Source: Spiribacter vilamensis
GTDB lineage: Bacteria > Pseudomonadota > Gammaproteobacteria > Nitrococcales > Nitrococcaceae
Reading direction: 5' to 3'
DNA length: 64,000 nt
Assembly: GCF_004217415.1 (NCBI RefSeq)
Contig: NZ_SHLI01000001.1
Coordinates: 992,001-1,056,000 of the forward strand
The notes under the pieces are model-generated. The model did not search any database. It was not told the DNA's origin and worked only from the letters and a program-made list of their open reading frames with translations. The position numbers and the translations under genes are program-made. Position 1 is the stretch's first letter. The number at the start of each line of letters is the position of its first letter. Positions 9,927 through 57,618 of the stretch are shown piece by piece.

Positions 9927-10048
9927 TCGAGCTCGAGGACGTCCGCGCACCTTTATCAGGGAGCGCGGTTCGGATTCATAAACATGTTGCGTTGCAACAT
10001 GAAGAAAAACCTCTCATGCCCAAACAATTAACCGATCAGGAAGACATC

Positions 10049-10444: not shown

Positions 10445-10478
10445 ACCGCACCACCGGACGCCTGTCCGGGGCATTGAA

Positions 10479-10509
10479 ACCGCTGGTCGCCGACCGGCGG
10501 TTTTTTTTG
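10479..10509 (+). terminator. rho-independent terminator of the phasin gene
   Basis: The stem CCGC-TGGTC / GACC-GCGG with a short loop is followed by eight T residues at 10501-10508. It starts 35 bases after the phasin stop codon. A second hairpin (CCGGAC, loop, GTCCGG) lies at 10455-10470 just before it. Confidence 0.85.
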
Positions 10510-10592
10510 TTTAAAACCACCGGCGTCAGCTGCCCTTGACGGGATTGTCATCACCCGGTCACCGTCACGAATCATTCTCATCAGGAGTCGGC

Positions 10593-11042: not shown

Positions 11043-11130
11043 TCGCCCCGCCGACTCCGAATACTCCGACGGGATCAGTGCGGTGGATTGCTAGGTGCTG
11101 CGCGCCGAGCGCTTCTGAGCCCGGACGCCC

Positions 11131-12171: not shown

Positions 12172-12230
12172 CAGCGCACGCCCCAGCCCGCTCAGAATGA
12201 CAGCATCCCCCGGAAATCCGATACCGGCAA

Positions 12231-13401: not shown

Positions 13402-13644
13402 TTACCAGTCCAGCGTCTCATCGCATTCATCCACGCGAGTATCCATTCCTTCCCGGATAGACTCCCGCATGCCGGGTATCGAAACCAGGTAAAGCGTTTG
13501 CTGAATGGCCGACCAGTCGTCCTCTGATACCAGGACCGCCTTGTTTCGCTTTCCTGCGATGAGGATTGGCTGATGAGATTCTACGACCTCATCAATGAGC
13601 CGATACAGGTTGCTACGCGCCTCGGTAGCTGTCATGGCGATCAT
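13402..13644 (-). CDS. YefM/Phd-family antitoxin, without an intact toxin partner
   Basis: 80 residues. MTATEARSNLYRLIDEVVESHQPILIAGKR is the Phd/YefM DNA-binding N-terminus, followed by NKAVLVSEDDWSAIQQTLYL and a toxin-neutralising acidic tail that ends ECDETLDW, the typical end of Txe/YoeB-linked antitoxins. The gene normally precedes a toxin gene, but the bases behind it hold only a six-codon toxin-like stub. It may persist as a solitary antitoxin that protects against related toxins. The start may be Met1 or Met4. Confidence 0.85.
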   Translation of the reverse strand: MIAMTATEARSNLYRLIDEVVESHQPILIAGKRNKAVLVSEDDWSAIQQTLYLVSIPGMRESIREGMDTRVDECDETLDW

Positions 13645-13742
13645 GCTTGAGCCTTTTGCCTAGTTGTCTTGCCGAAGAAGGTACGACGCAGGGTACGGGC
13701 ACACAAACGATCGCTCGGTATGACAATGAATCGAGATCCACA

Positions 13743-14540
13743 TCATCCCGCGCGCCTGCCGGATCCGTCACTCCCGATCCCCATTGACCGCCCGATATCG
13801 AACCTGAAGTGGCTCCAGTAGTTACCCTTGGCATCATACTCAATGATTCGCCACTCACCCGGCTGATTCCAGTAGATAACGAACGACTGCAGCATCGGCG
13901 CGTGGGGCCCAAGCAGTTTCCCGAGCTGTTTACCTGATCGCACGTCGCCCGCCGAGGGTGCGGTGTCGCCGTTGTGGACGGGATGGTTGTGATACTGGCG
14001 GATCTCGTCGCAGCCAAGCCGGACGATGTGATCACGCCACTTCGCCGGGTCATCCGCGGGGCGGCATCGGTACAGAGAACCGATCGAGGCGGTGACACGA
14101 ACAACAACGCCGGATCGCATGAACGCGGTGACGAACACCTCGCGGCGCTCGCGGTACATGCCGACGGCCAGTGCCTCCTCCAGGCTCGTGACGCCTCGCC
14201 CGGCAAGCCCGTAGGCCTTCTTGAACGATTCGCCCTTGCGCCGCATACGGAAGGCGTCGAAGCGCGCTGCCAGCGCCTGTTCGAGTCTCGCGAGTTCAGT
14301 GCGAACCACCGAGGATCGCTGGCATGCGGCGCGATACCGCCGCGACACGACCAGGAACACCCCATGAGCGATCACCAGAGCGAAGGGCAGCGCCAGTGCA
14401 ACATAGAGCAGCCGGTCCGAAGCGCTATCCGCCAGCCCGTATGCTGCAGCCACCATCAATGCCGTGGGCCCGGCCAGCACAAAGGCTTGCTGCCTGCGCA
14501 GATTCAAGCCCTCGGCGCGGAGGCGTTCGTACTGGGACAA
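13743..14540 (-). CDS. membrane-anchored JAB/JAMM-motif protein
   Basis: 265 residues, TTG start at 14540 with AGGATCC upstream. Two membrane helices lie at about 18-37 and 44-66, followed by a basic helical linker. The C-terminal domain contains HNHPVHNGDTAPSAGD: H184-x-H186-P with S196 and D199, which fits the JAMM zinc-protease pattern HxHP-x(7-8)-SxxD seen in RadC, Cap3 and other MPN proteins. The upstream catalytic Glu is probably E133 or nearby, but I cannot fix it. It could be a membrane isopeptidase, or a RadC-like domain of unknown action. It has no obvious conjugation or CBASS partner nearby. Confidence 0.7.
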   Translation of the reverse strand: MSQYERLRAEGLNLRRQQAFVLAGPTALMVAAAYGLADSASDRLLYVALALPFALVIAHGVFLVVSRRYRAACQRSSVVRTELARLEQALAARFDAFRMRRKGESFKKAYGLAGRGVTSLEEALAVGMYRERREVFVTAFMRSGVVVRVTASIGSLYRCRPADDPAKWRDHIVRLGCDEIRQYHNHPVHNGDTAPSAGDVRSGKQLGKLLGPHAPMLQSFVIYWNQPGEWRIIEYDAKGNYWSHFRFDIGRSMGIGSDGSGRRAG

Positions 14541-14571
14541 TCAAGGATCCTATTCAGTCAGGTCGCAATAC

Positions 14572-15225
14572 CTAACCATCCAGACGCACGAAAAACCCTG
14601 CACCGGTGCTATCGAACGCCCCGCCCTTCTGAATCAGCCGTACACGATCCTCCAACGGCGCGTCGTAGAGCAGATAACTGCGGCCATTCACCTCCGCCGC
14701 CGGCGCCAGAACGCTGCTCGAGCGTCCATCCAGCCGGAATTTGGTCGGGTGATAGGCATCCGGGCTGAGCATGAAGTTGATCGCCGACATCTCCCCTTCC
14801 ATGCGTGCGAAATCATCGCCCGTCTCGAATGAAACCCGGTGATAGCCCGGCAATGACGCCGACTCGGTCACCGACAGGTAGTAGGCATGATCGGCTCGAT
14901 CGACGCCAAGCACCGGCAGCTCCCCCTCAACCGTTACCTCGAAGCCCAGATCGGTCCTTTCCAGCTCGAAATCGTCGACGCTCATATATTGCGTGAGGAT
15001 ATCCTCAACGGCACCCACCTGGGCGCGCTGTTCGTCGTCGAGCTCGCCGATATTCGAGAAAACCGCCTCGAACTCGGCCGTGACTTCCTCGCCGGCTGCG
15101 ACCGCCTTGAGCTGTTCGATGGCGAGATCGATTTCCACCTCGTCCGCTTTGCAACCGGCCAGCAGCACGGCAACCATGCCCATGGTCGCGATACGGCCCA
15201 GTTTCCACTTGCGTAATCCCTGCAT
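14572..15225 (-). CDS. 217-residue lipoprotein (paralogue of 28777-29430)
   Basis: The ATG at 15225 has AGAAGGAAACAGG upstream. A lipoprotein signal with lipobox LLAGC (MVAVLLAGCKADEVEI) puts the mature N-terminus at Cys. The rest is soluble and mixed alpha/beta, ending GAGFFVRLDG. It is the same length as, and clearly homologous throughout to, the lipoprotein at 28777-29430 (GCKADE, then SINF, HPT, GRSS, APAA, LLYD, GGAF, GFFVR in register). Family function is unknown. It is divergent from, and 42 bp away from, no promoter-sharing partner; the coiled-coil membrane protein gene ends 42 bp upstream on the same strand. Confidence 0.82.
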   Translation of the reverse strand: MQGLRKWKLGRIATMGMVAVLLAGCKADEVEIDLAIEQLKAVAAGEEVTAEFEAVFSNIGELDDEQRAQVGAVEDILTQYMSVDDFELERTDLGFEVTVEGELPVLGVDRADHAYYLSVTESASLPGYHRVSFETGDDFARMEGEMSAINFMLSPDAYHPTKFRLDGRSSSVLAPAAEVNGRSYLLYDAPLEDRVRLIQKGGAFDSTGAGFFVRLDG

Positions 15226-15266
15226 GATCCTGTTTCCTTCTACTGCCAGTAAGCCTTCTATCCAAC

Positions 15267-16448
15267 CTACTCTCTCGCATCCTTCCATTGATTGGCGACA
15301 AACGTCCGTGCATCGATACCCCACAGGTACCGGAAACCCTTCAGCAGGATTAGCAGGAAAACGACGGGCATGATCACGGTTTTCAAAACGAAAAGCGCCA
15401 TGATCCGCAGGATTGAGTCGATCATCGCCTCGGCGCTTTCCTGCCAGGCACCGATGTCCGTCATTTTCTTAACGGACCCGATCTTCGCCATGGCCGCCCG
15501 CCAGTAGCCCTGGTCCTCTCCGTTGAGGCGAGCGACCAGATCGGCTTTTTCCGCGTCCAGTGAGTCCAGTTCCGTCGCCAGCGCATCCAGTCGCTCAATC
15601 GCTTGTCCATGGGCCGCGCGGTTTGCCTTGACCCGTTCAACCAGTGCCTTGTGTTCCGCACTCTCGGGGAAATACCGCTCGACTATCCCTTTATCGGCCT
15701 CCAGCGCGGCCAGGTCTGCTTCCGTTTTATCCAGTGCCGACCTGGCGTCAGCGACTGCTTTGCGTGCCTCCTCGATCGTGGCGAGCAGCGCCTCCCGCTT
15801 CTGGTCATTCTGCTTGATGCGCCCCTTTACCTCCTCGGCTTCCGCTGCATCCAGCGAGCTTTCGGGATCGCCCACCGCCTGCGACATCTCGGCGGCATTC
15901 TTCTCCAGCTCCTGGCGGGTCCCCTCGGTTTTCCTGTCGATGAACGCCTGGTCGAAAACCGCGTTGAGGAAAACCGTCATGACCAGCAGGAACCTCGTCA
16001 GCACGGCCAGCGAGAAGATCTTCAGGAGGACATCGGCGTAACGGCTGCCTCGAAAATAAAGGGAAAGGATCAGGATTAGTCCCGCAAGGGTAAGCGCTAT
16101 CTTGAAGAAGGGTGTCGAGACGATTTCGACGATGATTTTCTGGGTGATGAGCGAGCCGATCGCAAACCGCATGACATTGGAGCCCTCCTCGATCAGCGTA
16201 TCGACCGGATCCAGCGCCGCCCCGACCTGGACAGAGGCAACCTGCGCATCGACCTCAACCGATTCGGCGACCGAAACCGCGGCGTTGGCCAGACGCAACG
16301 TGCCATACGTCGCCAGCGCCTGGACTGTTGCATCGTTAACGTAACCCTCGGTCTTGCGATCCAGCACATTGAGCCACGAGACAAGGATGACGAGGCAGAT
16401 CCCGACAACGAGGATCTGGCGATTCCGCCCGTGGAAAAGCTCACTCAT
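15267..16448 (-). CDS. integral membrane protein with periplasmic or cytosolic coiled coil, unknown function
   Basis: 393 residues. Hydrophobic segments lie at about 10-26, 115-132, 142-162 and 345-368. Between the third and fourth is a 170-residue charged heptad-like region (KRIKQNDQKREALLATIEEARKAVADARSALDKTEADLAAL is part of it) that should form a long coiled-coil hairpin. Residues 35-105 are rich in Val/Ala and are probably outside the membrane. I do not recognise the family. It precedes the lipoprotein gene at 14572-15225 on the same strand with 42 bp between, so the pair may be co-transcribed and could form an envelope complex. Confidence 0.75.
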   Translation of the reverse strand: MSELFHGRNRQILVVGICLVILVSWLNVLDRKTEGYVNDATVQALATYGTLRLANAAVSVAESVEVDAQVASVQVGAALDPVDTLIEEGSNVMRFAIGSLITQKIIVEIVSTPFFKIALTLAGLILILSLYFRGSRYADVLLKIFSLAVLTRFLLVMTVFLNAVFDQAFIDRKTEGTRQELEKNAAEMSQAVGDPESSLDAAEAEEVKGRIKQNDQKREALLATIEEARKAVADARSALDKTEADLAALEADKGIVERYFPESAEHKALVERVKANRAAHGQAIERLDALATELDSLDAEKADLVARLNGEDQGYWRAAMAKIGSVKKMTDIGAWQESAEAMIDSILRIMALFVLKTVIMPVVFLLILLKGFRYLWGIDARTFVANQWKDARE

Positions 16449-46666: not shown

Positions 46667-46741
46667 TCCCCGGTAGCTCAGTGGTAGAGCGAGTGACTGT
46701 TAATCACTTGGTCGGCGGTTCGAATCCGTCCCGGGGAGCCA
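46667..46741 (+). tRNA. tRNA-Asn (anticodon GTT)
   Basis: A complete cloverleaf: acceptor TCCCCGG pairs with CCGGGGA, D arm with AGCTCAGTGGTAGAGC, anticodon loop CTGTTAA, T arm GGCGGTTCGAATCCGTC, discriminator G and an encoded CCA. Its last 46 bases are repeated exactly at 56448-56493, marking it as the integration site of the adjacent element, which rebuilds an intact tRNA 3' end. Confidence 0.97.
46696..46741 (+). repeat. attL core (46 bp)
   Basis: Identical to 56448-56493, from the anticodon loop to the CCA end of tRNA-Asn. Confidence 0.95.
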
Positions 46742-46759
46742 AAAAACACTAGATAATCA

Positions 46760-46791
46760 GGGGGTTAAGCCGGTCGGCTTGCCCCTTTTTT
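46760..46791 (+). terminator. terminator behind tRNA-Asn, inside the element
   Basis: GGGG-TT-AAGCC / GGCTT-G-CCCC with a short loop, followed by six T residues. It is supplied by the element, just inside attL. Confidence 0.85.
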
Positions 46792-46806
46792 ATGCCCGAA
46801 AGGCGC

Positions 46807-46838
46807 TTGTCACCTGATTTGTAACCATTGGTGACAAA
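46807..46838. promoter_or_regulatory. TTTGTCACC-type motif cluster, left end
   Basis: TTGTCACC (46807-46814), TTTGTAACC (46818-46826) and inverted GGTGACAAA (46830-46838) lie directly in front of the first cargo gene. The same 9-mer recurs in front of the terminase and integrase genes and at the origin. Confidence 0.6.
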
Positions 46839-46851
46839 GGAGCATGGACGC

Positions 46852-47064
46852 ATGCGGATCAGGCTCTACATCACAGCTTTGGTGCTCGTATCAATCAACG
46901 TCGCCGCGCCGAGTGCCGAGGCGACAGCACCCCACCCCTACTGCGACGAATATCAAGAGACGCTCAAAGAGGCGGCCGCGAAACGGCGACAGGACTATCC
47001 AAACTATGCGGGCAGCCTTTTCTTTCTCAATACCTCCACCGTTCGAGCCCTGCTTGTCCGGTGA
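46852..47064 (+). CDS. small exported protein, satellite cargo
   Basis: 70 residues from the ATG at 46852, with AAGGAG 10 bases upstream; a TTG at 46828 is an alternative. A signal peptide (IRLYITALVLVSINVAAPSAEA) is followed by a short mature region with one Cys (HPYCDEYQETLKEAAAKRR). I do not recognise it. It is the first gene inside the left end of the element, transcribed opposite to the satellite core genes, and 36 bp before a second exported protein gene. Confidence 0.55.
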   Translation: MRIRLYITALVLVSINVAAPSAEATAPHPYCDEYQETLKEAAAKRRQDYPNYAGSLFFLNTSTVRALLVR

Positions 47065-47100
47065 ATTGCCGAGGTAAAACCGCAAGGAGAGACATTAACT

Positions 47101-47658
47101 ATGTGGAAAAAAACTAGTTTTATCCCGGTGACATTTCTAGCGCTCCAGGTCGCGAACGCCTCAGATTCTTCCAATAGTCCATTCGAAACAGCTCCCGGCG
47201 TAGTCGAATGCCAGAATACACCTTGCGGCGAGGCACTAGATCAATTTTCAATCGTCTGCAGAGAGGGCGATAGAGTCTCTACCCACTGGGAATACAAAGA
47301 TGGTGAATACACTTACTTCACCGTGAATGAATCGACTGATTCCGAGAACGTTATATTCAGCGCAAGGCCTTCCAGAGTTGAGGTATCATATCGTTCCAAC
47401 CCGAGCATCCCAGACGATAAAGAAAAATCTTGGGCACGAATAACGATCGGAACAAAAGGGGCAGAGGCAATTGATGATAATGCGATGGGGCAGCCGGATC
47501 TTATGACAATTCGCATTCGTTCCTCTATTGATTCCCCGGAAGATCGTTGGTCTGAAATAAACATCCTGAAACAAGAAGCATTTATTGGTCCAGACGGTTA
47601 TTTAAGTTCGGTATTTAAGAACGAGAAAAATAGAGATGGTTGCTCTGCTGACTTCTAG
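47101..47658 (+). CDS. exported protein, satellite cargo, unknown
   Basis: 185 residues with AAGGAGAG upstream. The N-terminus (MWKKTSFIPVTFLALQVANA) is a signal peptide. The mature protein has four cysteines (VECQNTPCGEALDQFSIVC, and one near the C-terminus in DGCSADF) and a beta-rich pattern with YFTVNESTD. It is clearly more AT-rich than the rest of the window, which suggests a different origin. No family recognised. As accessory cargo of a satellite it might serve host fitness or phage interference; there is no direct evidence. Confidence 0.68.
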   Translation: MWKKTSFIPVTFLALQVANASDSSNSPFETAPGVVECQNTPCGEALDQFSIVCREGDRVSTHWEYKDGEYTYFTVNESTDSENVIFSARPSRVEVSYRSNPSIPDDKEKSWARITIGTKGAEAIDDNAMGQPDLMTIRIRSSIDSPEDRWSEINILKQEAFIGPDGYLSSVFKNEKNRDGCSADF

Positions 47659-47693
47659 CCTTTCCGAGTAATCAGTCCTTAAAGGAGTGCGAC

Positions 47694-47822
47694 ATGTTCT
47701 ATACTAATAGGGCGTGCGCCAGTATTCTGAAAACCTCACCGGGAGCATGGCTCCCGGCCGGGACTAGCCGCCTTGCCATGCGGTGGCGCGCCTTACCACC
47801 CCCGGAGACCCCCGGAAACTAG
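47694..47822 (+). CDS. possible small gene (42 residues)
   Basis: The ATG at 47694 has AAAGGAG at good spacing and opens MFYTNRACASILKTSPGAW, ending at the TAG at 47820-47822. Two strong hairpins cover most of it, so it may instead be a structured non-coding region between convergent units. Low confidence as a protein. Confidence 0.3.
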   Translation: MFYTNRACASILKTSPGAWLPAGTSRLAMRWRALPPPETPGN

Positions 47823-47829
47823 TCTCCGG
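47740..47829. terminator. two stem-loops between convergent cargo and head-protein genes
   Basis: CCGGGAGC-ATG-GCTCCCGG lies near 47741-47759, and CCGGAGAC-N12-GTCTCCGG at 47802-47829. Neither has a long T-run. The position between two convergent transcription units suggests a termination role. Confidence 0.45.
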
Positions 47830-47844
47830 GACACCGCCTCAATC

Positions 47845-48294
47845 TCAACCGATTCTTACCGCCGAACCGGCCCGGCCATGTTTAACCAATGCAATATGGT
47901 TTCCAACCACGGATTCTTGCCGGTACCGGGAACCGTCAGCCCGATATTCAGCCGTGTATCCTGCACTCAACTCCCTGGTGCCTTGAGCAATCGCCCGTAT
48001 GGCCTTGGCGTCCCAAACCAGCAGATCGCCCTTTAACTGCCCGGTGGCACCGTCGAACGTGACCTCGGACACCAGCCCCACGGCGTCGCGCTGAACGGCC
48101 TGTGAGTCCATTAGAGCGGGCGGGTGGTCGATGGTGACCGGTACGCCATTGAACGATTCGGCGCTGGCCTGTACGGCTACCGCTGGACGGTCAACGGTAA
48201 CCATCGCATCGCCAGTCATGCCGAGTTCGCTCGCCATGTAGGTTTGCTGCCCCGTCCTGGCGAACGGCACTTTTCGGAACAGCTTTGCCTTCAT
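47845..48294 (-). CDS. DUF2213 phage head/protease-like protein, apparently shortened
   Basis: 149 residues. ARTGQQTYMASELG, VPVTIDHPPALM, GTRELSAGYTAEY and VGNHIALVKHGRAG are the conserved blocks of DUF2213, a family found in phage head-morphogenesis modules and thought to be related to prohead protease or scaffold. Other members usually continue past the GRAG motif by 100 residues or more, whereas this one stops seven residues later, so the C-terminal part is missing. It is the last gene of the minus-strand satellite unit and overlaps the preceding gene by 4 bp. Confidence 0.78.
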   Translation of the reverse strand: MKAKLFRKVPFARTGQQTYMASELGMTGDAMVTVDRPAVAVQASAESFNGVPVTIDHPPALMDSQAVQRDAVGLVSEVTFDGATGQLKGDLLVWDAKAIRAIAQGTRELSAGYTAEYRADGSRYRQESVVGNHIALVKHGRAGSAVRIG

Positions 48295-48536
48295 CGCTGG
48301 CGACCTGCGAGGAAGTCATCGAACCCACCAGGGCGTCCGCCACCGTCGAGGAATTGGCTGTATTCCGTGGGCGGCTCCGGGCGTGTGGCCGGAGCGTCAT
48401 CCATGCTTACAGCCCGCATGGCTCTACCCTTGAGGCGACGGAGTTCGTCATCCGTAAGGGTCAGTTCATCATGCTCGATGAAGCCGCGATGCACGCCCGC
48501 ATCGAGGGCGCTATCAGTCATGTAAAAGGCGCTCAT
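48291..48536 (-). CDS. small satellite protein, unknown
   Basis: 81 residues (MSAFYMTDSALDAGVHRGFI). Acidic, with a helical segment DELTLTDDELRRLKGRAMRAV and a proline-rich C-terminus. It overlaps the DUF2213 gene (ATGA) and the upstream gene (4 bp), so it is translated as part of the terminase-to-head unit. No family recognised. Confidence 0.6.
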   Translation of the reverse strand: MSAFYMTDSALDAGVHRGFIEHDELTLTDDELRRLKGRAMRAVSMDDAPATRPEPPTEYSQFLDGGGRPGGFDDFLAGRQR

Positions 48537-49162
48537 GCTGCGGCCTCCTCGTTGCTGTTTTCGGATAGGACGCGGGGCAGATTCGGCGCTGCGGCCTCCA
48601 GGGCGTCGAGGATGCTCTCGGCCTCCGTCAGCCGATCGTGCGCTTGTGTCTGGCGCTGATCTTCAGCGGCCACGGCTTCAGGGTCGGCGAGGATCGCCAC
48701 CTGTTTGGCCTGATACGGCTCCAGGTGCGCTGTCACTGACTCCGGCCACACCATCACCCCATGCTCCAATTCGCACCGGGTCGCCATCGTCACGGCATCG
48801 GCCACCGTCGCCTTCTGCGTGGCGTTCCATCCGCTCGTGAGGGCAGGCAGGCGCGAAATAAGGATGGCGCCTTTGGTCTTGTCGGCGTCGAAAATCCACT
48901 GATCCTGGGCAAACCGCCCCAGCAGCATGGTCATCGTGGATCGGGCGGTTTCTCGGGGCGGGAACCTGCGGGTGCAGGCGTCTTGAATGATCGCCTCCCA
49001 CGGCCCGGTGTCATTGTCACCGGTGGCCTCGATCAGTTCCTTACGGGCGCTGCGGGCTTCGGCGATGGCGGCATCGTAGGCGGGCTTTAAGGTGCGCTCG
49101 GCTTCGGCCAGGGCATCGTCATAACGGGCGGCGAGATTCATAGCTTTGTTTGTGGTGCGCAT
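48533..49162 (-). CDS. satellite protein with coiled-coil ends, unknown
   Basis: 209 residues. The N-terminal 50 residues (ARYDDALAEAERTLKPAYDAAIAEARSARK) and the C-terminal 50 (EDQRQTQAHDRLTEAESILDALEAAAP) are coiled-coil helices flanking a compact middle. Its place between the terminase and the DUF2213 gene is where a portal or scaffold gene would be in a phage, but it has no portal-like motifs and is too short for one. Overlaps the next gene by 4 bp. Confidence 0.6.
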   Translation of the reverse strand: MRTTNKAMNLAARYDDALAEAERTLKPAYDAAIAEARSARKELIEATGDNDTGPWEAIIQDACTRRFPPRETARSTMTMLLGRFAQDQWIFDADKTKGAILISRLPALTSGWNATQKATVADAVTMATRCELEHGVMVWPESVTAHLEPYQAKQVAILADPEAVAAEDQRQTQAHDRLTEAESILDALEAAAPNLPRVLSENSNEEAAA

Positions 49163-49192
49163 GGTTTATGTCTCCATCTGTCGAGGTTGCGG

Positions 49193-50575
49193 TTAGAGCA
49201 TGTCCGCCACGGAAACCACCGGGCGGGTTGAGGTTGCGACTAGCCCCGCCACGGCATTGGCTCTATCGTCATGCCCGTTCGGCGGATGGTCGATACTGTC
49301 GCGCCCACCGCGGCTGGTACGGCGCTCTAGGGATTGAAACTGCAACGTCAACCGGTCGTCCGGTGGCAGTTCCACTTGGCCGGAATTGAGCGCGGCGAGG
49401 CAGTCTCTGTATAGGTCGGACTTAGGCTTGGCGGACGGTTCAACCTTGATTCCATGCCGGTTGAATTCATCGGATGGCCAGCTTCCGGCGTAGCGGTCGG
49501 ACGTCGCTTTGCGAACCCCGTAAGACTTCAGCAACGCCGCATATTCCTCGACGATCTCGGCCGGGGTGCCTTTCCGGGCGCGGATGCAGTCCACAACCAG
49601 GACACCGTTATCCCGGTGGCCGATTGAAACGCTGAATTCATCGCCGCCGCCACCGGCGGGGTCGATAAAGGCCTGGTACGTCCGCCCGCGCATATACGGG
49701 ATTTCCAACGGCCCGGAGCGGGTGGCGGCATCCAGCACCTCCCGTTGAATAAACGATTCGATGTCGGATCGAAACTGTGCGCCATACTCAGCGGCGGCAC
49801 TGGAGGCGTCGCGCTCATACGCTTTATCAATAATGCGCTGCGGTAGGTTGGGGTTGAGATACCGGCTGCTCGCCTGTGCAACCAAAACCTCGTCACCGTC
49901 CTGCGCATAGTGCTGGCGGTAGTTATCCCAAAGCTCGCCTCGGCGAGCGTAGGGGCTGGACAAGGCCAGCAATGGCCCGCCAAGGGTCGCCAGACCGGGG
50001 CGCACTGCGTTAATGATTTCGAAGTCTGGATTCGCCGAATCCTCGCTCCTATAAAATGCTATTTCGTCGCATATGATGGCCGCATAGCTGAAACCCCTAG
50101 CTGTGCGGTAACTAGCCGTGCCCACCTCGATCACGGATCGGTTAGTTAGCTCTACGCTTTCTTTATCTTGCCGGTCGATCATCGCGGCGAGCATGGGGTT
50201 TGATTCCAGCAATCCGACCACATACCGCATGACGCTCCGCGCCTGCGCCCGGTCGGCGGCCATGCAGCGCACCGTTGCAACCTCCCCCGGTGCCAGCTTG
50301 TCGCGGTGGTCGCGAAAGGCGGCCTCGTAGACTGCTAACAGCGCCGCGCATTGGCTCTTACCACCGCGCCGCCCTACCACCTGCCATAACTCCGCGTGGG
50401 GTTGTGTGGGCGCTGTGCGGCCCGTCAGGGCGAACCAGTGTTCGGCCTCGGCATCGTCGAGGGGCAGTCCATAGAAGCCTGCGAGTAGCGCACGCCACGC
50501 GGCCCAACTGTCACCGCCAAACTGGCCACCAAACAGGGCGGGGTCAGTCATCACTTGGCGAATATCAACGGTCAT
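49193..50575 (-). CDS. terL: terminase large subunit
   Basis: 460 residues, close to the usual length. The ATPase has Walker A GRRGGKS (68-74) and Walker B IICDEIAF (about 165-172). The nuclease has AFIDPAGGGGDEFSV, a middle acidic residue in TSDRYAG, and HDDRANAVAG near the C-terminus, so all three RNase H-like acidic positions appear present. It powers DNA packaging into capsids. Finding it in an element without capsid genes implies packaging into a helper's heads or decay of a former capsid module. Overlaps the small-subunit gene by 4 bp. Confidence 0.9.
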   Translation of the reverse strand: MTVDIRQVMTDPALFGGQFGGDSWAAWRALLAGFYGLPLDDAEAEHWFALTGRTAPTQPHAELWQVVGRRGGKSQCAALLAVYEAAFRDHRDKLAPGEVATVRCMAADRAQARSVMRYVVGLLESNPMLAAMIDRQDKESVELTNRSVIEVGTASYRTARGFSYAAIICDEIAFYRSEDSANPDFEIINAVRPGLATLGGPLLALSSPYARRGELWDNYRQHYAQDGDEVLVAQASSRYLNPNLPQRIIDKAYERDASSAAAEYGAQFRSDIESFIQREVLDAATRSGPLEIPYMRGRTYQAFIDPAGGGGDEFSVSIGHRDNGVLVVDCIRARKGTPAEIVEEYAALLKSYGVRKATSDRYAGSWPSDEFNRHGIKVEPSAKPKSDLYRDCLAALNSGQVELPPDDRLTLQFQSLERRTSRGGRDSIDHPPNGHDDRANAVAGLVATSTRPVVSVADML

Positions 50576-50934
50576 GCCGATGCCTCCCGCTGGCGGAGAT
50601 AATCGGTCAGGCTTGGCGCTTCACGCTTTTGCCGATCCAGCCCTAAACGCGAATAGATACCCTGGAGACTGTTAGCCGCCTGAATCCAGCGCGACACATC
50701 GAACGTGTGGCCTTTCGCTAATGCCTGCTCTTGTTGCGAAAGCCAGTACTCAAGCCACAAGGCGCGCTCGACTAGGCTGCGTTGCATATACGACAAACGA
50801 TCAGCGCCGCCAAGGTCTGCACAAACTTCATCGAACCGCGCGCGCAATTCGCGGGCGATGCCGTATCGACCGTCTAGCGAATCCAGCCAGCCGGGGCGGT
50901 ATTGATTCGGAATGTCGGTGTTTTTAGTGCTCAT
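50572..50934 (-). CDS. terminase small subunit-like protein
   Basis: 120 residues, helical, directly upstream of and overlapping (ATGA) the large terminase gene, as small subunits usually are. Segments such as GRYGIARELRARFDEVCADLGG and DVSRWIQAANSLQGIYSRLG look like the DNA-binding and oligomerisation helices of small terminases. Assignment rests largely on position. A pair of TTTGTCACC motifs lies 26-46 bases upstream of the start. Confidence 0.65.
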   Translation of the reverse strand: MSTKNTDIPNQYRPGWLDSLDGRYGIARELRARFDEVCADLGGADRLSYMQRSLVERALWLEYWLSQQEQALAKGHTFDVSRWIQAANSLQGIYSRLGLDRQKREAPSLTDYLRQREASA

Positions 50935-50959
50935 TTAGCGCCTAGTTTGCATTGCGATC

Positions 50960-50980
50960 GGTGACAAAATTGGTGACAAA
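50960..50980. promoter_or_regulatory. TTTGTCACC pair in front of the terminase genes
   Basis: GGTGACAAA at 50960-50968 and again at 50972-50980, exactly 12 bp apart. The same pair, inverted, occurs at 56284-56304 before the integrase gene. Confidence 0.65.
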
Positions 50981-51200
50981 TTGCCGCCGTATGATCTTAT
51001 TATCCCATTAAAACAGGCTTTTGCAATAGATTGGCGCGTGACCAAACATCACTTACTACTGTTTTTTGCGCTGGTCACGGGTAGGGGATATAGGGCGGTC
51101 GGTGTTTAGCGTCGGGGTTCTGGAGGGTTTGGCTTACTGGCGTTCGGCGAGATAGGCGGGGTTTTGTTATTGGGCGCGAAGGCGTCCAGACATCGACCGT

Positions 51201-51308
51201 GTGAGTTTTGTGAGTTTTTTGAGTTTTATTTCACCCTATGCCCTGATTTGTCACATGACACTTGACCCCCCTAGGTTGTAAGAAACTCACAAAAACTCAC
51301 AAACTCAC
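51201..51308. other. candidate satellite replication origin (inverted iteron array)
   Basis: Three left-side iterons, GTGAGTTT at 51201 and 51210 and TGAGTTT near 51220, mirror three right-side copies AAACTCAC at 51283, 51293 and 51301. The exact centre of the array (51254.5) is also the centre of TGTCA-CA-TGACA (51249-51260). The array lies 37 bp beyond the stop codon of the primase-helicase gene, the place where PICI and SaPI origins sit. The rest of the 50935-51344 gap shows only the TTTGTCACC pair noted above. Confidence 0.65.
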
Positions 51309-51344
51309 AACCCCCCCGGTGGAGGGGTCGGAGTATTTCATCGC

Positions 51345-54110
51345 TTAGAACGGCGGTTCCGGGTTTAACGGCACGACGCGCCATTGCTTCGCCCGTCGAT
51401 ACGTTCCGTCCTGCTCGATCCGGTAACCGTCGATCACCCGTCCAACGCGGCCCTCGATCCAGCGCCCCAGGCGGCGGGGGTTGATAACGCCCCGCTCCCC
51501 TGCGATTTCCTGCAACGTCTCGTCGAGCATCACAGCCTGTTCGTCACCGAACATGGCCCGCTTCGCTTCGTCGATAAGCGTTGCGGCCCGCACGGCGTCG
51601 GTGCCGTGGATGTCATGCCAGGTGGCAATCAGCGCCCGCAGCTTTTGCGTTTCCGGGTCGGCGTCGTAGTTTGCCCTTACCGCGTCGAGGGGATCGTCCA
51701 GGGTGACGGGTGCCAGAAACTCGTCGTTCATCCACACAACACACTGGCGGATCAGGGCGTCCCATCGCTCAAATGACCCCATCTCACCCGCTGCACGGCG
51801 TGGCGCTCCAGCCGCCATGAATCCTCGCAGGATCGTCAAGGCAGCAGCCCGATACTGGAGCCACCGATCGCGCACCCGTGCCACCGGGTCGAACGGGAAT
51901 TGCAGGGTTTCGGGGCTTTCGACGCCATGATCCATCGTCGCCACCAGTACCCGCCGCGATAGATCACCGGCCACCCGTAGGTTGTTGCCGGTGGCGAGCA
52001 TCAGGGTGCGCGTGGGCGCGTAGATTTCTTCAGAAACCCCCAACTTCCGATCCTTGAACCAGCTTGCGGTAAGAGCGGCGTTCAGCGCGTCCGATTTGAT
52101 CGGCTCCGATATGTTGTCGAACATCATCGACGCTGGCCCGGCCATTAGCCCTGCCATGATCCGCTTGCGCTGTTCCTCGGCCTGATCGCTCCACGGGGAT
52201 TCCACGGGTTCAGACCCGCCGAACCACGCGGTGGCCTTGGCGGCCTTGCTCTTGCCCGTCCCGGCCTTGTAAGCGTTCATCCCGAAACCCGGCGCCGTTT
52301 CGAGAATCGGGCGCTGCACGGCGGTCAGAATCGCCGCCATTTGCACCCCACGGCTCATGGCATCGACATACGGGAAATGGGCGAACGGTTCCCACACCAC
52401 CTCAGCGGCGGCGCGGATTTGCTCTTCTGTCGGGTGTGACGGAATGGCTGGCCAGTCGTCCGGAGTACTAGCGTCGAGGAGTAACCCGGTCTCGGCGTCG
52501 TATCCGGGCTTGTCGAGCAATGAACCATCGGCTCGCAGGATCGGCCCGTTGATGATTCCGACAAGTTCCGGCATACCCCACCCGCCGCGATTGGCGAGCA
52601 TACGGACGGACAAATCCCCCGGCGCGTCGCATGGGCGCCAGCCTTTCGCGCGGGCGTCGTAGCGTTGCCATGCTGCGACTTCCTCCAGGTGCGTCCGCAG
52701 CCACGGCGCCTGCACTCCGTAGATACCCCCGCCCGGTACGATTCTCACCAACTGCCCGCCGCGCTGGTACACTTCGCCCGCGTCAGTCACCAGGGCATCA
52801 GCCTCCCGCAGAATCCGGGGCATTTCGCCCGGTTGCGTCTTGATCGTGGCGCTGCTCCGAACCAGCGTGAACCGCTGGCCGCCGTGGGCATGGCTGTAAA
52901 TAAACGGGCGCCCGCCGCTTTTGAGATTCAGCCACGCAATCCGGGCGTCGTTGCCGTACTGGGGTTCGAGCGGATCGGCGAAACGCTCGCCGTGCCACTT
53001 GTCCGGCGCGTCCATCACATCGGCCACCGTGATGGTCTCGCCGCTTGAATGGATCAGTTCAAAGTCGCCGTAAAGCCGATGATTCTGCACGGCTTCGACC
53101 AGCCGTTGCAGGGCTTCGCCTCCGTCGTCATCGGGCATGTTCGCCATACGATCCTTCACCCACTGATCGTAGGCTTCGCGCTGCTCAGGCTTTACGGCCT
53201 GGGCGGCTTCGGCCTCGATCTCTTTCAGGGTGCGTCGCTCGTCACTGGATAGATCGGGGAGCGTGACGGTGGTACTGATCGGGGCGGCGTTATCGTTGCG
53301 GGCATCAGGCGCGGGGCGGTACTGCTCCAGCGGCTCGCAACATGCCGCGCCCGCCGCGAAGTCCAGCCGCTCCGGCTGCCAAACCTCTTTATCCACGGGG
53401 CTTCGATTGAGTAGCGCCCCGGATGCGCTTACCGCGAAATAGCCGTATCCGGCCAGCCATAGGCGGCGGTGCAACGTGTCCCCGGCCCGTTTAATGTCTC
53501 GGGCATCGGCAACCAGCACATACAGCCGCAATCCCCCGCGGCCCTTAACCTGTTCGCCGGTATCCGTGCGGTATATATGCGATGTCCCGCTATCCCCTAC
53601 CACGGCGGGGGCGGCGGTGATCTCCGGCCATACCTGTTCGATCATCGCCAGCAGCCCCGCCCTGTCGAGCGGCTCCGCGCCTTTCGGCGGATCATTATCA
53701 AGCATCATCCAGCCCGGCCCGGCTTTCCAGTCGAACCGATCCCGGATGCGTAGCAAGTCGCCATCCCGGGCGGCTTTACGGGATGCAACCGGCCCGGATT
53801 CAACCTTTGCCACGCCATAGGCGAGCGCTTGATTGGTGTCGAGCGTGGGGATCAGTTCGGCTAGATCAGACGGGCGGGCGCATGGGCGGCGCTCGTAGTG
53901 TCCACGCACCAGTTCACCGCCCGGGGTTTTGTCCAGGTTGCCGCTATCGTCGAGGGTGTACAGCTTCGACAGCCGATCCCGTGACGTGAACACGCTTACC
54001 AGCGCTGGCGAGCCTTTGCCGGTCGGGGTATGCTGATTCACAGGATAGGAAAAGGACTCAGCCCCGTCAGCGCCCGCCAGCGCGTCGGGGTTTTTTTTCG
54101 TTGGCTGCAT
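51345..54110 (-). CDS. satellite primase-helicase
   Basis: 921 residues. The N-terminal part (about 90-290) resembles archaeo-eukaryotic-type primases of mobile elements, with WMMLDNDPP and a glycine-rich GRGGLRLYVLVADA. The C-terminal part (about 590-800) is a helicase-type ATPase with Walker A GTGKSKAAKA, a Walker B-like MMFDN, and LMLATGNN as sensor I. Such fusions initiate replication of P4-like and PICI satellites and of some phages. It follows the AlpA-like gene at 2 bp, and the origin-like array is directly 3' of it. Activity details are inference. Confidence 0.8.
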   Translation of the reverse strand: MQPTKKNPDALAGADGAESFSYPVNQHTPTGKGSPALVSVFTSRDRLSKLYTLDDSGNLDKTPGGELVRGHYERRPCARPSDLAELIPTLDTNQALAYGVAKVESGPVASRKAARDGDLLRIRDRFDWKAGPGWMMLDNDPPKGAEPLDRAGLLAMIEQVWPEITAAPAVVGDSGTSHIYRTDTGEQVKGRGGLRLYVLVADARDIKRAGDTLHRRLWLAGYGYFAVSASGALLNRSPVDKEVWQPERLDFAAGAACCEPLEQYRPAPDARNDNAAPISTTVTLPDLSSDERRTLKEIEAEAAQAVKPEQREAYDQWVKDRMANMPDDDGGEALQRLVEAVQNHRLYGDFELIHSSGETITVADVMDAPDKWHGERFADPLEPQYGNDARIAWLNLKSGGRPFIYSHAHGGQRFTLVRSSATIKTQPGEMPRILREADALVTDAGEVYQRGGQLVRIVPGGGIYGVQAPWLRTHLEEVAAWQRYDARAKGWRPCDAPGDLSVRMLANRGGWGMPELVGIINGPILRADGSLLDKPGYDAETGLLLDASTPDDWPAIPSHPTEEQIRAAAEVVWEPFAHFPYVDAMSRGVQMAAILTAVQRPILETAPGFGMNAYKAGTGKSKAAKATAWFGGSEPVESPWSDQAEEQRKRIMAGLMAGPASMMFDNISEPIKSDALNAALTASWFKDRKLGVSEEIYAPTRTLMLATGNNLRVAGDLSRRVLVATMDHGVESPETLQFPFDPVARVRDRWLQYRAAALTILRGFMAAGAPRRAAGEMGSFERWDALIRQCVVWMNDEFLAPVTLDDPLDAVRANYDADPETQKLRALIATWHDIHGTDAVRAATLIDEAKRAMFGDEQAVMLDETLQEIAGERGVINPRRLGRWIEGRVGRVIDGYRIEQDGTYRRAKQWRVVPLNPEPPF

Positions 54111-54112
54111 GT

Positions 54113-54319
54113 TTAGACCCTCCCCGCCGCGCGCGGCTCGGTCTGCTCATGAGCGATGATCCAATCGGAAATAGACTCGCGCCGATAAAACACTTGCTTG
54201 CCGATTTTAATTCGCGGCGGGCCAATCCTCTGCGCGTGCCAGCGTTCAACTGTGCGCCTTGTGACGCCCATTTCCTCCGCGAACGTCTGGAGGCTGATTA
54301 AATCGTCTCGAATGGTCAT
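54113..54319 (-). CDS. AlpA/excisionase-like helix-turn-helix regulator
   Basis: 68 residues: ISLQTFAEEMGVTRRTVERWHAQR, then PPRIKIGKQVFYRRESISDWI. This is the MerR-like winged helix of AlpA-type regulators, which in P4 and Gram-negative PICIs activate integrase or satellite genes and may serve as excisionase. It leads the short operon with primase-helicase. The 98 bp upstream (54320-54417) is AT-rich with a CCCCG/CGGGG inverted repeat, and may hold its promoter. Confidence 0.82.
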   Translation of the reverse strand: MTIRDDLISLQTFAEEMGVTRRTVERWHAQRIGPPRIKIGKQVFYRRESISDWIIAHEQTEPRAAGRV

Positions 54320-54417
54320 AAAAAATCCCCGGATTCGTCGTGAATGTCGGGGACTATTTAATTAAACCCATCGCGATTAAGGCTGGGTATGTATTTGGCG
54401 CAATTATACCCCCAGCA

Positions 54418-54984
54418 TCATGTCTGCCTTTTGAGCCGGGGCGTATTTTCTTTTTCGTGGCGATACAATTCTCCGCACGCAGCGGCTTCGCGGGCATCGT
54501 GTAGGTTATCGGTGAAAACGTCCTCCGCTCCCATTTGCGCGAATTTCTGCAACGCGTCCTCCCGGTCTAGTCCGTCGCGCTTCGCTTTTGCTCCGATTTC
54601 TCGCGCGCGCAACCAATAATTCCCGCCGTTATGGTTTTTCCAGTACTCATTAACCGTATGCTCCGAGAATGGAAAAAAGCGCGGGGCTATTTCTGCCACG
54701 CTGATTCGCGGCGCTTTTCCGGTGTCGGATCGGGCGGTGATTCCATACCCCACCGCCATATGCATGAACACGATTAACCGCAGCCGCGTTTGACGCGCTC
54801 TTACATCCTGCGGCGCACCCCTACCCTGCAACGCGGTGGCAATAATCTCTCGCGCTTCGGAACACTCCAAAACTTCCGTGATCCCCGCTCGCACCATTGC
54901 AATGAGCGGTTTCGGATCTCCGTCGCGATAGTCGGCGACCGCTGCCTCGACAATCTCGGCTGCTGTACCGATCTGCGCGCTCAT
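54418..54984 (-). CDS. satellite protein, unknown, coupled to integrase
   Basis: 188 residues, helical. Residues about 60-115 (ARQTRLRLIVFMHMAVGYGITA, then APRISVAEIAPRFFPFSEHTVNEYW) suggest a DNA-binding helix-turn-helix with SEHTVNEYWK as recognition helix. It overlaps the integrase stop codon by 4 bp (ATGA) and could be a regulator. No family recognised. Confidence 0.6.
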   Translation of the reverse strand: MSAQIGTAAEIVEAAVADYRDGDPKPLIAMVRAGITEVLECSEAREIIATALQGRGAPQDVRARQTRLRLIVFMHMAVGYGITARSDTGKAPRISVAEIAPRFFPFSEHTVNEYWKNHNGGNYWLRAREIGAKAKRDGLDREDALQKFAQMGAEDVFTDNLHDAREAAACGELYRHEKENTPRLKRQT

Positions 54985-56270
54985 GTCCGCGCCTCCGCAA
55001 TCGACACCACGTTATCGTCGGCCGACTCGCCGCTAGTGATCCGCAGCAAACGGCGCTCCCATGCCTCAAGGGCGGCGCGCTTCTCGTGGTCGTACTGGTG
55101 TTGGTTATAAACGGCGACGATGCCCTGATCCGCGTGGCCGATAACCCGCTCGGCGATTTCCTGCGGGTAGCCGCAGGCGGTGACTTCGGTGCGCGCGGTA
55201 CGGCGTAAATCGTGCGGCGTCCAGTGCCCCCACGTCGGCGCGTCCCGATTGCCGAGCGGTTCGGCGAAACGGTGGACGGCTTTACTCAACGCGGACACAG
55301 AAACCGGCGCATGGGGACGGGCTTCAAACACATAGCCGGACGGTTCGCCGCGACGGCGTTCATACAGCCGGGCCACCTCGTTGCGCGCGGTGTCGATGAT
55401 CTCCAACGCCAACGGGGTGAGCGGGACGCGGTGCGCGGTTTCAGTTTTCCGACGCCGCTCTGCGGGGATCGTCCACACGTCGCCGCTGATTTCGTCGTGG
55501 TGCATCCCCGCAACTTCTCCGGGACGCTGGCCGGTTAGTAAGACCATTTTCAACGCCAGCGCGGTCAGCCGGTGGATACCGCAGTCCTCGGCACCAGACC
55601 AGAACGCCGCCACCTCGTCGTGATCGAGCACCCGCCGACGCTGGCGGGTCTTGAGCGCATCTTTGCGCCCCTGCGCCTTTACGTTTTTCGGTTTGATGCT
55701 GGCGGCGGGGCTGGCGTCGATGTATTCCCGATCAACACACCAGTCGAAAAAACCCTTCGAATAGGCCAGCAAATGACGGGCGGCAGTCGGTGTCTGCTCG
55801 GCTTTGTCCTCGATCATGTCGAGCACATCACGGCGACGAACGTCACGCACCTTGAGCGCGCCAAGGGCGGGCACCATGTCCCGTTCGAAATAACGCGTTA
55901 TCGGTTTTTCGCTCACCAGCCCGGTGACGTGCTTGCGGATGTAGTCGGCCACGGCATCGGCCACCGTCGGGTCAGCGCGGCGACGGCGCTTTTCTTCGAG
56001 TGGATCAATACCGGAGTCGATCTGCTGGCGGATGCCACGCGCTTCATCGCGTGCCGCCTCCAGGCTCCAATCAGGCCACGCACCGATGGTCTTTCGGCGC
56101 TGTTTGCCCTCCGACGTGTATTTGAGGATGAACGCCTTGCCGCCCGCCCCCGTGATCCGCAACCCGAATCCTCGGGGCGCGTCCCGGTGGTCGTCGAACA
56201 ACAACCTTTGCCCTTTCTCCGGCGGCTCCGCCCTCGCGATGTTACCGCCCTTCCCGTCTGTAAACTTCAT
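54981..56270 (-). CDS. int: P4-type tyrosine integrase
   Basis: 429 residues from the ATG at 56270 (MKFTDGKGG), with GAGGC upstream. The N-terminal DUF4102 arm-binding domain includes RGFGLRITGAGGKAFILKY and ARDEARGIRQQIDSGIDPLEEK. The catalytic domain has Arg in LTGQRPGEV, HDLRRTART (H-x-x-R), the second His in GHAD and the Tyr nucleophile in AVYNQHQY. It recombines the 46-bp tRNA-Asn site. The gene lies next to attR, reading inward. A pair of TTTGTCACC motifs sits 14-34 bases before the start. Confidence 0.93.
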   Translation of the reverse strand: MKFTDGKGGNIARAEPPEKGQRLLFDDHRDAPRGFGLRITGAGGKAFILKYTSEGKQRRKTIGAWPDWSLEAARDEARGIRQQIDSGIDPLEEKRRRRADPTVADAVADYIRKHVTGLVSEKPITRYFERDMVPALGALKVRDVRRRDVLDMIEDKAEQTPTAARHLLAYSKGFFDWCVDREYIDASPAASIKPKNVKAQGRKDALKTRQRRRVLDHDEVAAFWSGAEDCGIHRLTALALKMVLLTGQRPGEVAGMHHDEISGDVWTIPAERRRKTETAHRVPLTPLALEIIDTARNEVARLYERRRGEPSGYVFEARPHAPVSVSALSKAVHRFAEPLGNRDAPTWGHWTPHDLRRTARTEVTACGYPQEIAERVIGHADQGIVAVYNQHQYDHEKRAALEAWERRLLRITSGESADDNVVSIAEART

Positions 56271-56283
56271 GCCGCTGCCTCGA

Positions 56284-56304
56284 TTTGTCACCGGATTTGT
56301 CACC
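56284..56304. promoter_or_regulatory. TTTGTCACC pair in front of the integrase gene
   Basis: TTTGTCACC at 56284-56292 and 56296-56304, 12 bp apart; another copy (TTTGTCACT) lies at 56407-56415 near attR. These may be integrase arm sites, repressor operators, or both. Confidence 0.65.
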
Positions 56305-56447
56305 AGATGAACGTGTATCGTCTGACAGGCAATGTCGCATATCGTCACTTACCATGCAACGTATAGCGCACTAAATACAGGGGTTTATATGATCGGAGCG
56401 GCGAGATTTGTCACTAATCAGGGGGTTATGAAAACCCCCTTCCGGTA

Positions 56448-56493
56448 ACTGTTAATCACTTGGTCGGCGGTTCGAATCCGTCCCGGGGAGCCA
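56448..56493 (+). repeat. attR core (46 bp, tRNA-Asn 3' fragment)
   Basis: Identical to 46696-46741. It lacks the tRNA 5' half, so it is not a functional tRNA gene. Confidence 0.95.
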
Positions 56494-56535: not shown

Positions 56536-57618
56536 TCACGATGCCTGCTTCATGCGGCGTCGCCCCGCCAGCGTTCCGAACAAACCTCCAACGAGCAACG
56601 CAAGCGCTCCCGGTGCCGGTACAGGGGTGGGCCCACCATCGGCAACACCGATAAGATCCAGCTCCGCTATCGCAGTCGAACCATCGGTACCGAACGCCTG
56701 GGCAATGAATATGTTGGAGCCCAGTCCCAGCGAATAGCCAGGTGAAGTAAAGCCCCCGATCGCATCGGTTGCCACATCACCCTGGATAGTCCCGTCAGGC
56801 AGGGTAATGTCCACTCGTTCAAGGCCGACCAGGTTGCCGGTTGTGCCCGAGAAGATATCGAGAAGCGCCTGCAAATCGGTCCCATCCGTGAACGTACCAT
56901 TATCATCGGAGTTTCCAACGATACCGTCGGGGCCATCCGCGAGGTCCTGCATCGTGCCGACGTTGGCGCCCGGCAATGCGACGGAATTCACCGAAATACC
57001 GTTGCTGTTCGCGATATCCGCCTCGGCCGGACCGGATTGCGACTCGCCATCGGAGAACACGACCATTTGCTGACTGCGCCCGACCGTGGCATCCACACCG
57101 GTCAGAATCGCCTCCGCCTCTGTTATTCCGTCGCCGATGTCGGTCAAACCAGACGCATCGACTGAATCAATAGCCGAATTAATGAGGCTAATGTTTCCGG
57201 GAGAACTCAGTGGTGTGAGCGACTGCACCGTGGACGCAGAAGAATCAAATTCCACGATACCAACCGAGGTGTTGGTGGTCGGGAGTCCGCTTACCAGATC
57301 CCTGGCGAACTGCTGCTGCCATTCTCTACGGGTTTGCGTCGTATTACCCACGGTCTCGAAAGCGCCCATGCTGCCCGACGAATCCATAACGATTCCCAGA
57401 TCCAGGCCGCTGCCTCCACTCCCCGTACCGCTTGCGATCCCTGTGGGGCTGACGGTGGTCCCGACCGGGAACATGGTCAGGTTCGCCGGCGAGGTCCAGG
57501 AGACGCTGGTGGCGGCCTGTGCCGATGCCGCCAGGCCCAGGGCCCCGACACCCGCCAGGGCACCGACCAGTAGCCAGTGCCGGGATGCAAAACCTTCGTA
57601 TTGCGCCTTGTGTTTCAT
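56536..57618 (-). CDS. exported VWA-domain protein with PEP-CTERM-like sorting signal
   Basis: 360 residues. The signal peptide ends ASAQAA. A von Willebrand factor A domain spans about 72-275, with MIDAS residues D79, S81 and S83 in VMDSSGSMG. The C-terminus has VPAPGALALLVGGLFG followed by AGRRRMKQAS: a VPAP variant of the VPEP motif, a membrane helix and a basic tail, the layout of PEP-CTERM signals handled by exosortase. It is probably a surface or matrix protein. GAGGG precedes the start, and a sigma-54 promoter lies 71-87 bases upstream. The 57706-57892 stretch beyond the promoter shows nothing recognisable. Confidence 0.88.
   Translation of the reverse strand: MKHKAQYEGFASRHWLLVGALAGVGALGLAASAQAATSVSWTSPANLTMFPVGTTVSPTGIASGTGSGGSGLDLGIVMDSSGSMGAFETVGNTTQTRREWQQQFARDLVSGLPTTNTSVGIVEFDSSASTVQSLTPLSSPGNISLINSAIDSVDASGLTDIGDGITEAEAILTGVDATVGRSQQMVVFSDGESQSGPAEADIANSNGISVNSVALPGANVGTMQDLADGPDGIVGNSDDNGTFTDGTDLQALLDIFSGTTGNLVGLERVDITLPDGTIQGDVATDAIGGFTSPGYSLGLGSNIFIAQAFGTDGSTAIAELDLIGVADGGPTPVPAPGALALLVGGLFGTLAGRRRMKQAS

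Follow-up and report, generated by a model that had tools for sequence, protein, structure and literature searches.

A candidate phage satellite of Spiribacter vilamensis with its own terminase pair and no recognised portal gene

Phage-inducible chromosomal islands (PICIs) and their kin are the closest described systems to the element reported here, which is located in a tRNA-Asn gene of Spiribacter vilamensis within a 64,000-nt stretch of contig NZ_SHLI01000001.1 (positions 992,001 to 1,056,000; the whole stretch is called the window). According to the available excerpts of the cited reports, Gram-negative PICIs combine an integrase, an AlpA regulator and a primase with an origin, occupy a fixed attachment (att) site, lack tail and lysis genes and optionally encode the small terminase subunit TerS; some carry a capsid homologue, and single head genes occur (PMC6092414). 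Selection of DNA by an own TerS is known in PICIs; in one PICI studied, the large subunit TerL and the portal are supplied by the phage (PMC12597102). Capsid-forming PICIs (cf-PICIs) possess their own TerS and TerL and encode capsid, protease, portal, connectors and an HNH nuclease (PMC10690885). Phage-inducible chromosomal minimalist islands (PICMIs) are very small, sit in fis of Vibrionaceae and show the order int, a gene overlapping int by ATGA, alpA and primase, the excerpts describing them as devoid of identifiable packaging genes; PICMI115 is excised by Int, AlpA and the product of the overlapping gene and replicated by its primase (PMC10803314). In the literature compared here, as far as these excerpts reach, known satellites either borrow TerL and portal from a helper or build a whole head. 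The Spiribacter element pairs terS with terL, and no portal gene was recognised. We read it, with a probability of roughly 0.6, as an integrated PICI- or PICMI-like phage satellite that has its own TerS-TerL motor and borrows portal and shell from a helper. An earlier reading of the same DNA (the original prediction) had proposed either a new satellite type using helper heads or a decayed capsid-forming island; the analysis supports and favours the former.

The element measures 9.75 kb between the att repeats. The predicted 46-bp exact direct repeat was confirmed at 46696-46741 (attL) and 56448-56493 (attR, plus strand) and coincides with the 3' end of tRNA-Asn (GTT; 46667-46741, plus strand, found by ARAGORN). 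The GC content is 59.9%, compared to 65.5% in the 20 kb of left flank and 61.7% on the right. Between the att copies are eleven open reading frames (ORFs): nine on the minus strand (int, orf188, alpA, primase, terS, terL, orf209, orf81 and a DUF2213 gene) and two uncharacterised ones on the plus strand near the tRNA. Pfam and PHROGs were searched at E 0.1 with ten of the eleven, all except the 78-aa orf78. Among these ten, no portal, capsid, tail or lysis family was matched, as had been predicted, barring an unreliable match (E 0.018) of the uncharacterised orf81 (48291-48536) to the head-tail adaptor family phrog_137. A near-DNA search with the whole element found no match among phages.

Integrase, AlpA/MerR-type regulator and primase-replication module follow each other as in Gram-negative PICIs. 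As for the absence of structural and lysis genes from such islands, the ten ORFs have no portal, capsid, tail or lysis match (orf81 aside), but a head protease domain and TerL are present, and published PICIs may contain single head genes (PMC6092414). The element resembles PICMIs in its int with a 4-nt overlapping gene, alpA and primase; it differs in its site and in having packaging genes. Integrase, regulator and replication genes are also found in cf-PICIs. With these it shares the terminase pair, TerS being less certain; it differs in that the protease is the sole head gene seen and no portal, major capsid or connector gene was recognised in the ten ORFs (the orf81 adaptor match aside). 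The P4-like hallmarks are Psu, Sid and Delta together with the use of the helper terminase. A P4-like integrase and an AlpA/Vis-type regulator (PF13356, HTH_17) are present; no Psu-, Sid- or Delta-type Pfam match was seen in the ten ORFs, the existence of a Pfam model for each being unconfirmed, and the terminase is the element's own.

TerL (460 aa; 49193-50575) is identified by phrog_2 (3.6e-22) and by alignments in which it keeps the residues conserved across its family; we take some of these to be the Walker-type and acidic nuclease-type motifs. Its four Pfam terminase matches are all under the curated cut-offs, and a PDB sequence search returned four terminase sequences with weak E values (5e-4 to 7e-3). 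TerS (120 aa; 50572-50934) had been predicted alongside TerL. It has neither a Pfam nor a PHROG match, and the PDB sequence search yielded nothing of use. Its AlphaFold2 (AF2) model (pLDDT 85.4) has no Foldseek match under E 1; in VIA, the HK97 small terminase came out first, at Z 7.1 over 99 aligned residues, ahead of 5.9 for the second row. TerL stands as predicted, and TerS is a putative assignment based on its position before TerL, a conserved partner family and this weak fold match.

Relatives were sought with the window TerL, alone or in a profile; each search was centred on one genome, which is part of the count. TerL was found in 2/14 genomes of the genus, 2/23 of the family, 4/369 of the class and 4/385 of the class of G200 (the latter two at E 1e-20), in 12/398 of the phylum at E 0.001, of which eight (L008-L015) are weak, partial matches, and at E 1e-30 in 1/247, 2/62 and 1/20 genomes of the orders of G353, G460 and G730, respectively. 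Profiles outperformed single window proteins: TerL and DUF2213 alone yielded few or distant loci, and so did the integrase, with identities of 28-33% save for one short match. Ten of the 16 TerL loci in genomes (window included) are bounded by tRNA-gene repeats, and these lie in ten genomes. Of the remaining six, L078, L079, L081 and L083 reach contig ends, and L002 and L082 show no repeat. One genome, G443, holds three TerL matches (L078, L079 and the bounded L080); the two at contig ends are perhaps halves of one gene.

The bounded elements occupy tRNA-Asn (window, L018, L003), tRNA-Leu (L020, L077, L108, L076; the genes used by L077 and L108 differ in anticodon), tRNA-Ser (L021), tRNA-Gln (L022) and tRNA-Lys (L080). 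Six have a single exact att block, namely the window, L018 (47 bp), L108 (57), L022 (50), L003 (17) and L021 (14). Mismatches split the blocks of L020 (25 + 18), L077 (18 + 17 + 15) and L080 (23 + 15; a repeat of 26 bp found at another place in that stretch is longer but was disregarded), and the att copies of L076 have diverged to blocks of 13, 12 and 10. Sizes range from 7.4 to 16 kb (L108, 9.3 kb). All ten encode a tyrosine integrase, recognised in L003, L018, L020, L021 and L076 by similarity to that of the window or its cluster and in L077, L022 and L080 by PDB relatives; the L108 integrase is 62.8% identical to that of L077. Primase or helicase families are present among the ORFs of the bounded elements. 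In five elements (the window's, L020, L076, L077 and L108), int shares 4 nt with the gene that follows it; the called ORFs of L018 and L021 overlap by 79 and 70 nt, respectively. The original prediction had reckoned with the case that no related intact element exists; intact-looking ones do, and ten tRNA-bounded elements with a common core mean that the window element is not a lone remnant.

TerL is present in all ten bounded elements, though split in L022, and TerS was recognised in nine; in L022 it was searched for and not found. In the nine, terS and terL are adjacent. This arrangement bears on a different role for the pair: the helper TerL might package the satellite, and the satellite's TerS-TerL might mainly interfere, for instance by occupying helper portals or by cutting helper DNA. 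The conserved residues of TerL and the missing own portal would suit such a role. A TerS kept side by side with TerL argues against it, and published satellites interfere with their helpers by other means, as far as the excerpted report tells (PMC10690885), so that we regard interference as improbable.

The complete Pfam lists contain no portal family for 65 ORFs of seven bounded elements (20 families) or for 28 ORFs of L022 and L108 (eight families). The first scan comprised 62 of 99 listed ORFs and three extra ones of L003 that gene calling had overlooked; it omitted the TerL, TerS and integrase genes of each element as well as 16 further ORFs, which included alpA of L020 and presumed shadow ORFs. 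The second comprised 22 of 36 listed ORFs of L022 and 6 of 11 of L108, whose primase was scanned separately. Since the PHROG tallies give the best 25 of 54, 50 and 56 families, the statement on portals is based on the Pfam lists. Head-related Pfam matches are Phage_tail_S and Phage_cement_2 in the seven elements and Phage_capsid and HK97-gp10_like in L022/L108. A capsid gene was found in one of the ten bounded elements (L108).

DUF2213 is a head-protease domain. The window protein (149 aa; 47845-48294) had been predicted as a head-type fragment. The domain was confirmed (PF09979, 8.6e-33); 'fragment' is doubtful because the match covers profile positions 12-165 of 167 and the protein keeps 17 of 20 residues that are invariant in 32 relatives (window not counted). 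Among the kept residues are H57, S110 and H133, which by analogy we assume to be catalytic. Nine of 15 nearly invariant positions are kept as well. AF2 predicts a compact fold (pLDDT 95.6). In Foldseek, no protease appeared among the best 50 rows for this model; a resemblance to the MCE domain (E at least 0.05, TM-scores about 0.3) was not taken as a relation. The protein lacks the C-terminal extension found in most phage relatives. Among the 58 viral relatives (out of 80 loci) whose length was determined, the median is 434 aa, and three are short (196-216 aa). These three are the best (L142), second-best (L143) and fifth-best (L146) matches of the 80 loci, at 43, 42 and 40% identity, and the gene that follows DUF2213 in L142 and L143 (320-325 aa) resembles, by eye, a separate scaffold. 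These features agree with a short form that still works, but the protein may also be in early decay or have taken on another role.

A tree of TerL was built from 43 rows (cluster members of at least 300 aa; eight near-copy loci, L052-L055, L057 and L061-L063, were dropped). L108 joined the set later and is absent, and L080 is on a very long branch. The window TerL forms a clade with those of L076, L020 and L077 (support 99/98), all bounded satellites of the host's class (Gammaproteobacteria). Outside this clade, satellite TerLs are mixed among those of portal-bearing contigs. The portals beside TerL relatives belong to three PHROG families (145, 146 and 2662), a diversity to be expected if the motor is compatible with more than one kind of portal. 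L077 and L108 are the sole pair that allows a selection test: their TerLs are 78.6% identical with dN 0.19, dS 1.6 and dN/dS 0.12, and are under purifying selection. Among 50,697 phage records, TerL matches three (two from a single phage) with identities near 25%, TerS none and DUF2213 872; this means that the motor lineage is hardly seen in isolated phages and that the protease is of a common phage type. Five of 72,556 plasmid records hold TerL.

These data also bear on the second half of the original prediction, that a capsid-forming island or prophage lost portal, capsid and connectors and left TerS-TerL and DUF2213 behind. The existence of portal-bearing relatives of the window TerL is compatible with it, and phages place DUF2213 near head genes. 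The distal 1.1 kb of the element consists of uncharacterised cargo only, and one bounded relative, L022, is visibly broken. On the other side are the ten bounded elements with a common core and no portal found, the selection on TerL in the one testable pair and the nearly whole DUF2213 domain, which has short counterparts in three of the 58 measured relatives, including its two best matches. Moreover, the 23 family genomes contain no DUF2213 or TerL gene of a fuller element. Decay of such an island or prophage is considered unlikely, and the satellite with its own motor is preferred; a distant origin by loss from fuller head modules may nevertheless apply, given the portal-bearing TerL relatives.

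The slot after TerL is filled differently from element to element. In the window it holds orf209 (48533-49162), which has no Pfam or PHROG match, appears helix-rich by eye and could be a scaffold. The corresponding proteins of other elements are unrelated to it; apart from the head-related ones listed below, they too look helix-rich by eye. One common post-TerL protein was considered and rejected, as the proteins split into several unrelated sets. L108 has a complete-looking HK97-type capsid gene (11356-12498; phrog_10, 2e-68) directly after TerL, with no space behind it for a portal, where L077 has a helix-rich protein. Neck proteins are encoded in L022 and in L080 (phrog_26, 2e-15), the latter also having a cement-like one (phrog_673, 1.6e-10); in L003, one protein matches head proteases weakly (7e-4 at best). 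In the incomplete viral contig L043, TerS, TerL and a capsid gene stand in a row. We give about even odds to a more general reading: a satellite motor, TerS plus TerL without a portal, that works with various portals and is paired with a single head gene, which is swapped to suit the current helper and may encode a protease, a capsid, cement or neck protein or a helix-rich one. An element with a motor of its own and no portal would demonstrate that the two can be combined between unrelated elements in nature, and it would offer a simple genetic way to test what determines whether a motor fits a portal. A terS-terL pair near a replication gene and without a portal would serve as a search signature for such satellites.

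Genes for excision and replication are located upstream of the packaging genes. The integrase (455 aa; 54981-56348) is P4-type (PF00589, 9.3e-20; PF13356, 4e-18) and is followed by orf188 (54418-54984), which overlaps int by 4 nt and is positioned like the PICMI gene iolg; it has no Pfam or PHROG match, and its PADLOC match to Cas10h (E 0.006) was taken as chance. The next gene encodes an AlpA-like helix-turn-helix regulator or excisionase (68 aa; 54113-54319; HTH_17, 9.3e-7; phrog_66, 3.9e-9). Integrase and regulator are thus as predicted. For the 921-aa primase (51345-54110), predicted as a primase-helicase, PHROG matches were obtained and no Pfam match: residues 37-386 match the DNA primase family phrog_16593 (6.3e-43), which bears out the primase, and residues 422-913 match phrog_29234 (2.1e-87), a family of unannotated function, so that the C-terminal part is a presumed helicase and the protein probably a primase-helicase.

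The origin-like iterons of the original prediction were recovered as a probable replication origin at 51199-51310, between primase and terS, where the motif TTGTGAGTTT occurs in both orientations and forms inverted repeats. With one mismatch allowed, it has eight matches in the window compared to 1.32 expected, six of them in this interval. The 9-mer ATTTGTCAC has five matches versus 0.27 expected. A further motif, TTTGTCAC, has seven copies in the 64 kb, all inside the element: two upstream of terS (50961-50980) and one each at 46831, 51247, 56284, 56296 and 56407, which places them near both termini of the element, in the origin and, as a pair, ahead of terS. This distribution suggests one regulator that might link excision and packaging. 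Eight-mers common to the int and terS regions are clear in the window. Some with at least four copies occur in L018, L020, L077 and L108, their weight being uncertain for want of a control, and none was seen in L076, L003 and L021.

On the preferred reading, entry of a helper phage would lead to excision of the element by AlpA and Int, with the product of the int-overlapping gene, and the element would be replicated from the iterons by its primase, in line with the findings for PICMI115 (PMC10803314). Its own TerS would select the concatemers, and its own TerL would fill with them proheads built from the helper's portal and shell. The genes beside TerL (here the protease and orf209, elsewhere capsid, cement or neck genes) may adjust the helper heads; tails and lysis would be supplied by the helper. 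Several points weigh against this reading. Docking of the satellite's TerL on a helper portal is a new step and is assumed. Helper, circle, particle and transfer have not been observed. TerS is a putative assignment, and the window TerL has no close relative among the loci found on which selection could be tested. The interleaving of satellite and portal-bearing TerLs makes repeated loss from fuller modules possible. DUF2213 departs at three of the 20 invariant and six of the 15 nearly invariant positions, a possible sign of decay or of a new function. In L022, terL (9545-11812) is interrupted on the opposite strand by what appears to be an insertion-sequence transposase gene (10432-11244), and in L077 no replication gene was recognised, a 281-aa candidate having no PHROG match.

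Portal and capsid might also be provided by a second mobile element of the same cell instead of an infecting phage. In favour of this is G443, a genome with at least two TerL loci of the window-type family (two of its three matches, at contig ends, maybe being one gene). The window genome has no second DUF2213 gene, portal and capsid families not having been searched genome-wide, and we consider this source very improbable.

Satellites with partial head sets and their own TerS are already published, and an own TerL without a portal is the apparent novelty. In the excerpts of the literature on satellites with terminases, no such element was found; it may exist in the work on VEIMEs, tycheposons, cf-PICIs or SatelliteFinder. 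The satellite-plasmids PISP combine a head protease with a small terminase, and no portal is named in the available text; they differ from the window element in having a capsid gene and being episomal, and TerL is not named there (PMC13230959). In SaPIbov5, the lone capsid homologue Ccm redirects helper heads, and the excerpt does not mention an own TerL (PMC8569155). L108 likewise has a single HK97-type capsid gene, in this case beside TerL.

L140 is a Komagataeibacter nataicola plasmid (NZ_CP134887.1) that encodes a recombinase, TerS, TerL, DUF2213 (277 aa), a 226-aa protein that is helix-rich by eye, ParA and VapE. No portal or capsid is among its listed genes, the PLSDB tables being incomplete. 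TerL and DUF2213 are thus found together on a plasmid as well. With TerS, TerL, DUF2213 and ParA, the plasmid resembles the PISP/cf-PISP class as excerpted (PMC13230959). Its 30.4-kb record apparently consists of one repeated unit of some 15.2 kb, and it has the appearance of a plasmid-borne satellite. A separate group (L040, L039, L090 and L091; similarly L034, L036, L047 and L002) shows a resolvase, TerS-TerL, often DUF2213, and then tape-measure and tail genes. For the first four, no portal or capsid is among the best 25 of 56 families from 41 ORFs; possibly this group joins a motor to a tail without a head, or its capsid genes lie elsewhere.

The insertion site was compared within the genus, where the neighbouring gene aspC was found in 13 of 14 genomes. 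Besides the window and G007, nine loci were read, two at contig ends being excluded; two of the nine, L112 and L117, are short. Empty sites, which the original prediction had suggested looking for, were found: all nine have a single tRNA-Asn copy with one att core and no match to seven element proteins used as queries. Because the right flank of the window is not syntenic in them, 'empty' means a tRNA without the element only. DUF2213 is absent from the other 22 family genomes, and window-type TerL occurs in the 23 only in the window and one other satellite; a complete prophage at this site in close relatives, which would have spoken against the original prediction, was thus not seen, portal and capsid families again lying outside this search. 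Adjoining attR outside the element, a gene at 56536-57618 encodes a von Willebrand-type protein with, by eye, a PEP-CTERM-like end signal; it has no match in the nine loci.

The plus-strand cargo near the tRNA consists of orf78 (46828-47064), a called ORF scanned with PADLOC alone and without match, and orf185 (47101-47658), which has no match in Pfam, PHROGs or PADLOC and whose N-terminus resembles, by eye, a signal peptide. Four window proteins were scanned with PADLOC, and no convincing defence gene was found. Two relatives probably carry defence cargo: L003 a UzuA gene (14691-15524; 1.6e-70) and L021, at 13481-15302, a PDC-S31 gene (6.5e-47) and a weakly SIR2-like gene (6e-4), all by PADLOC.

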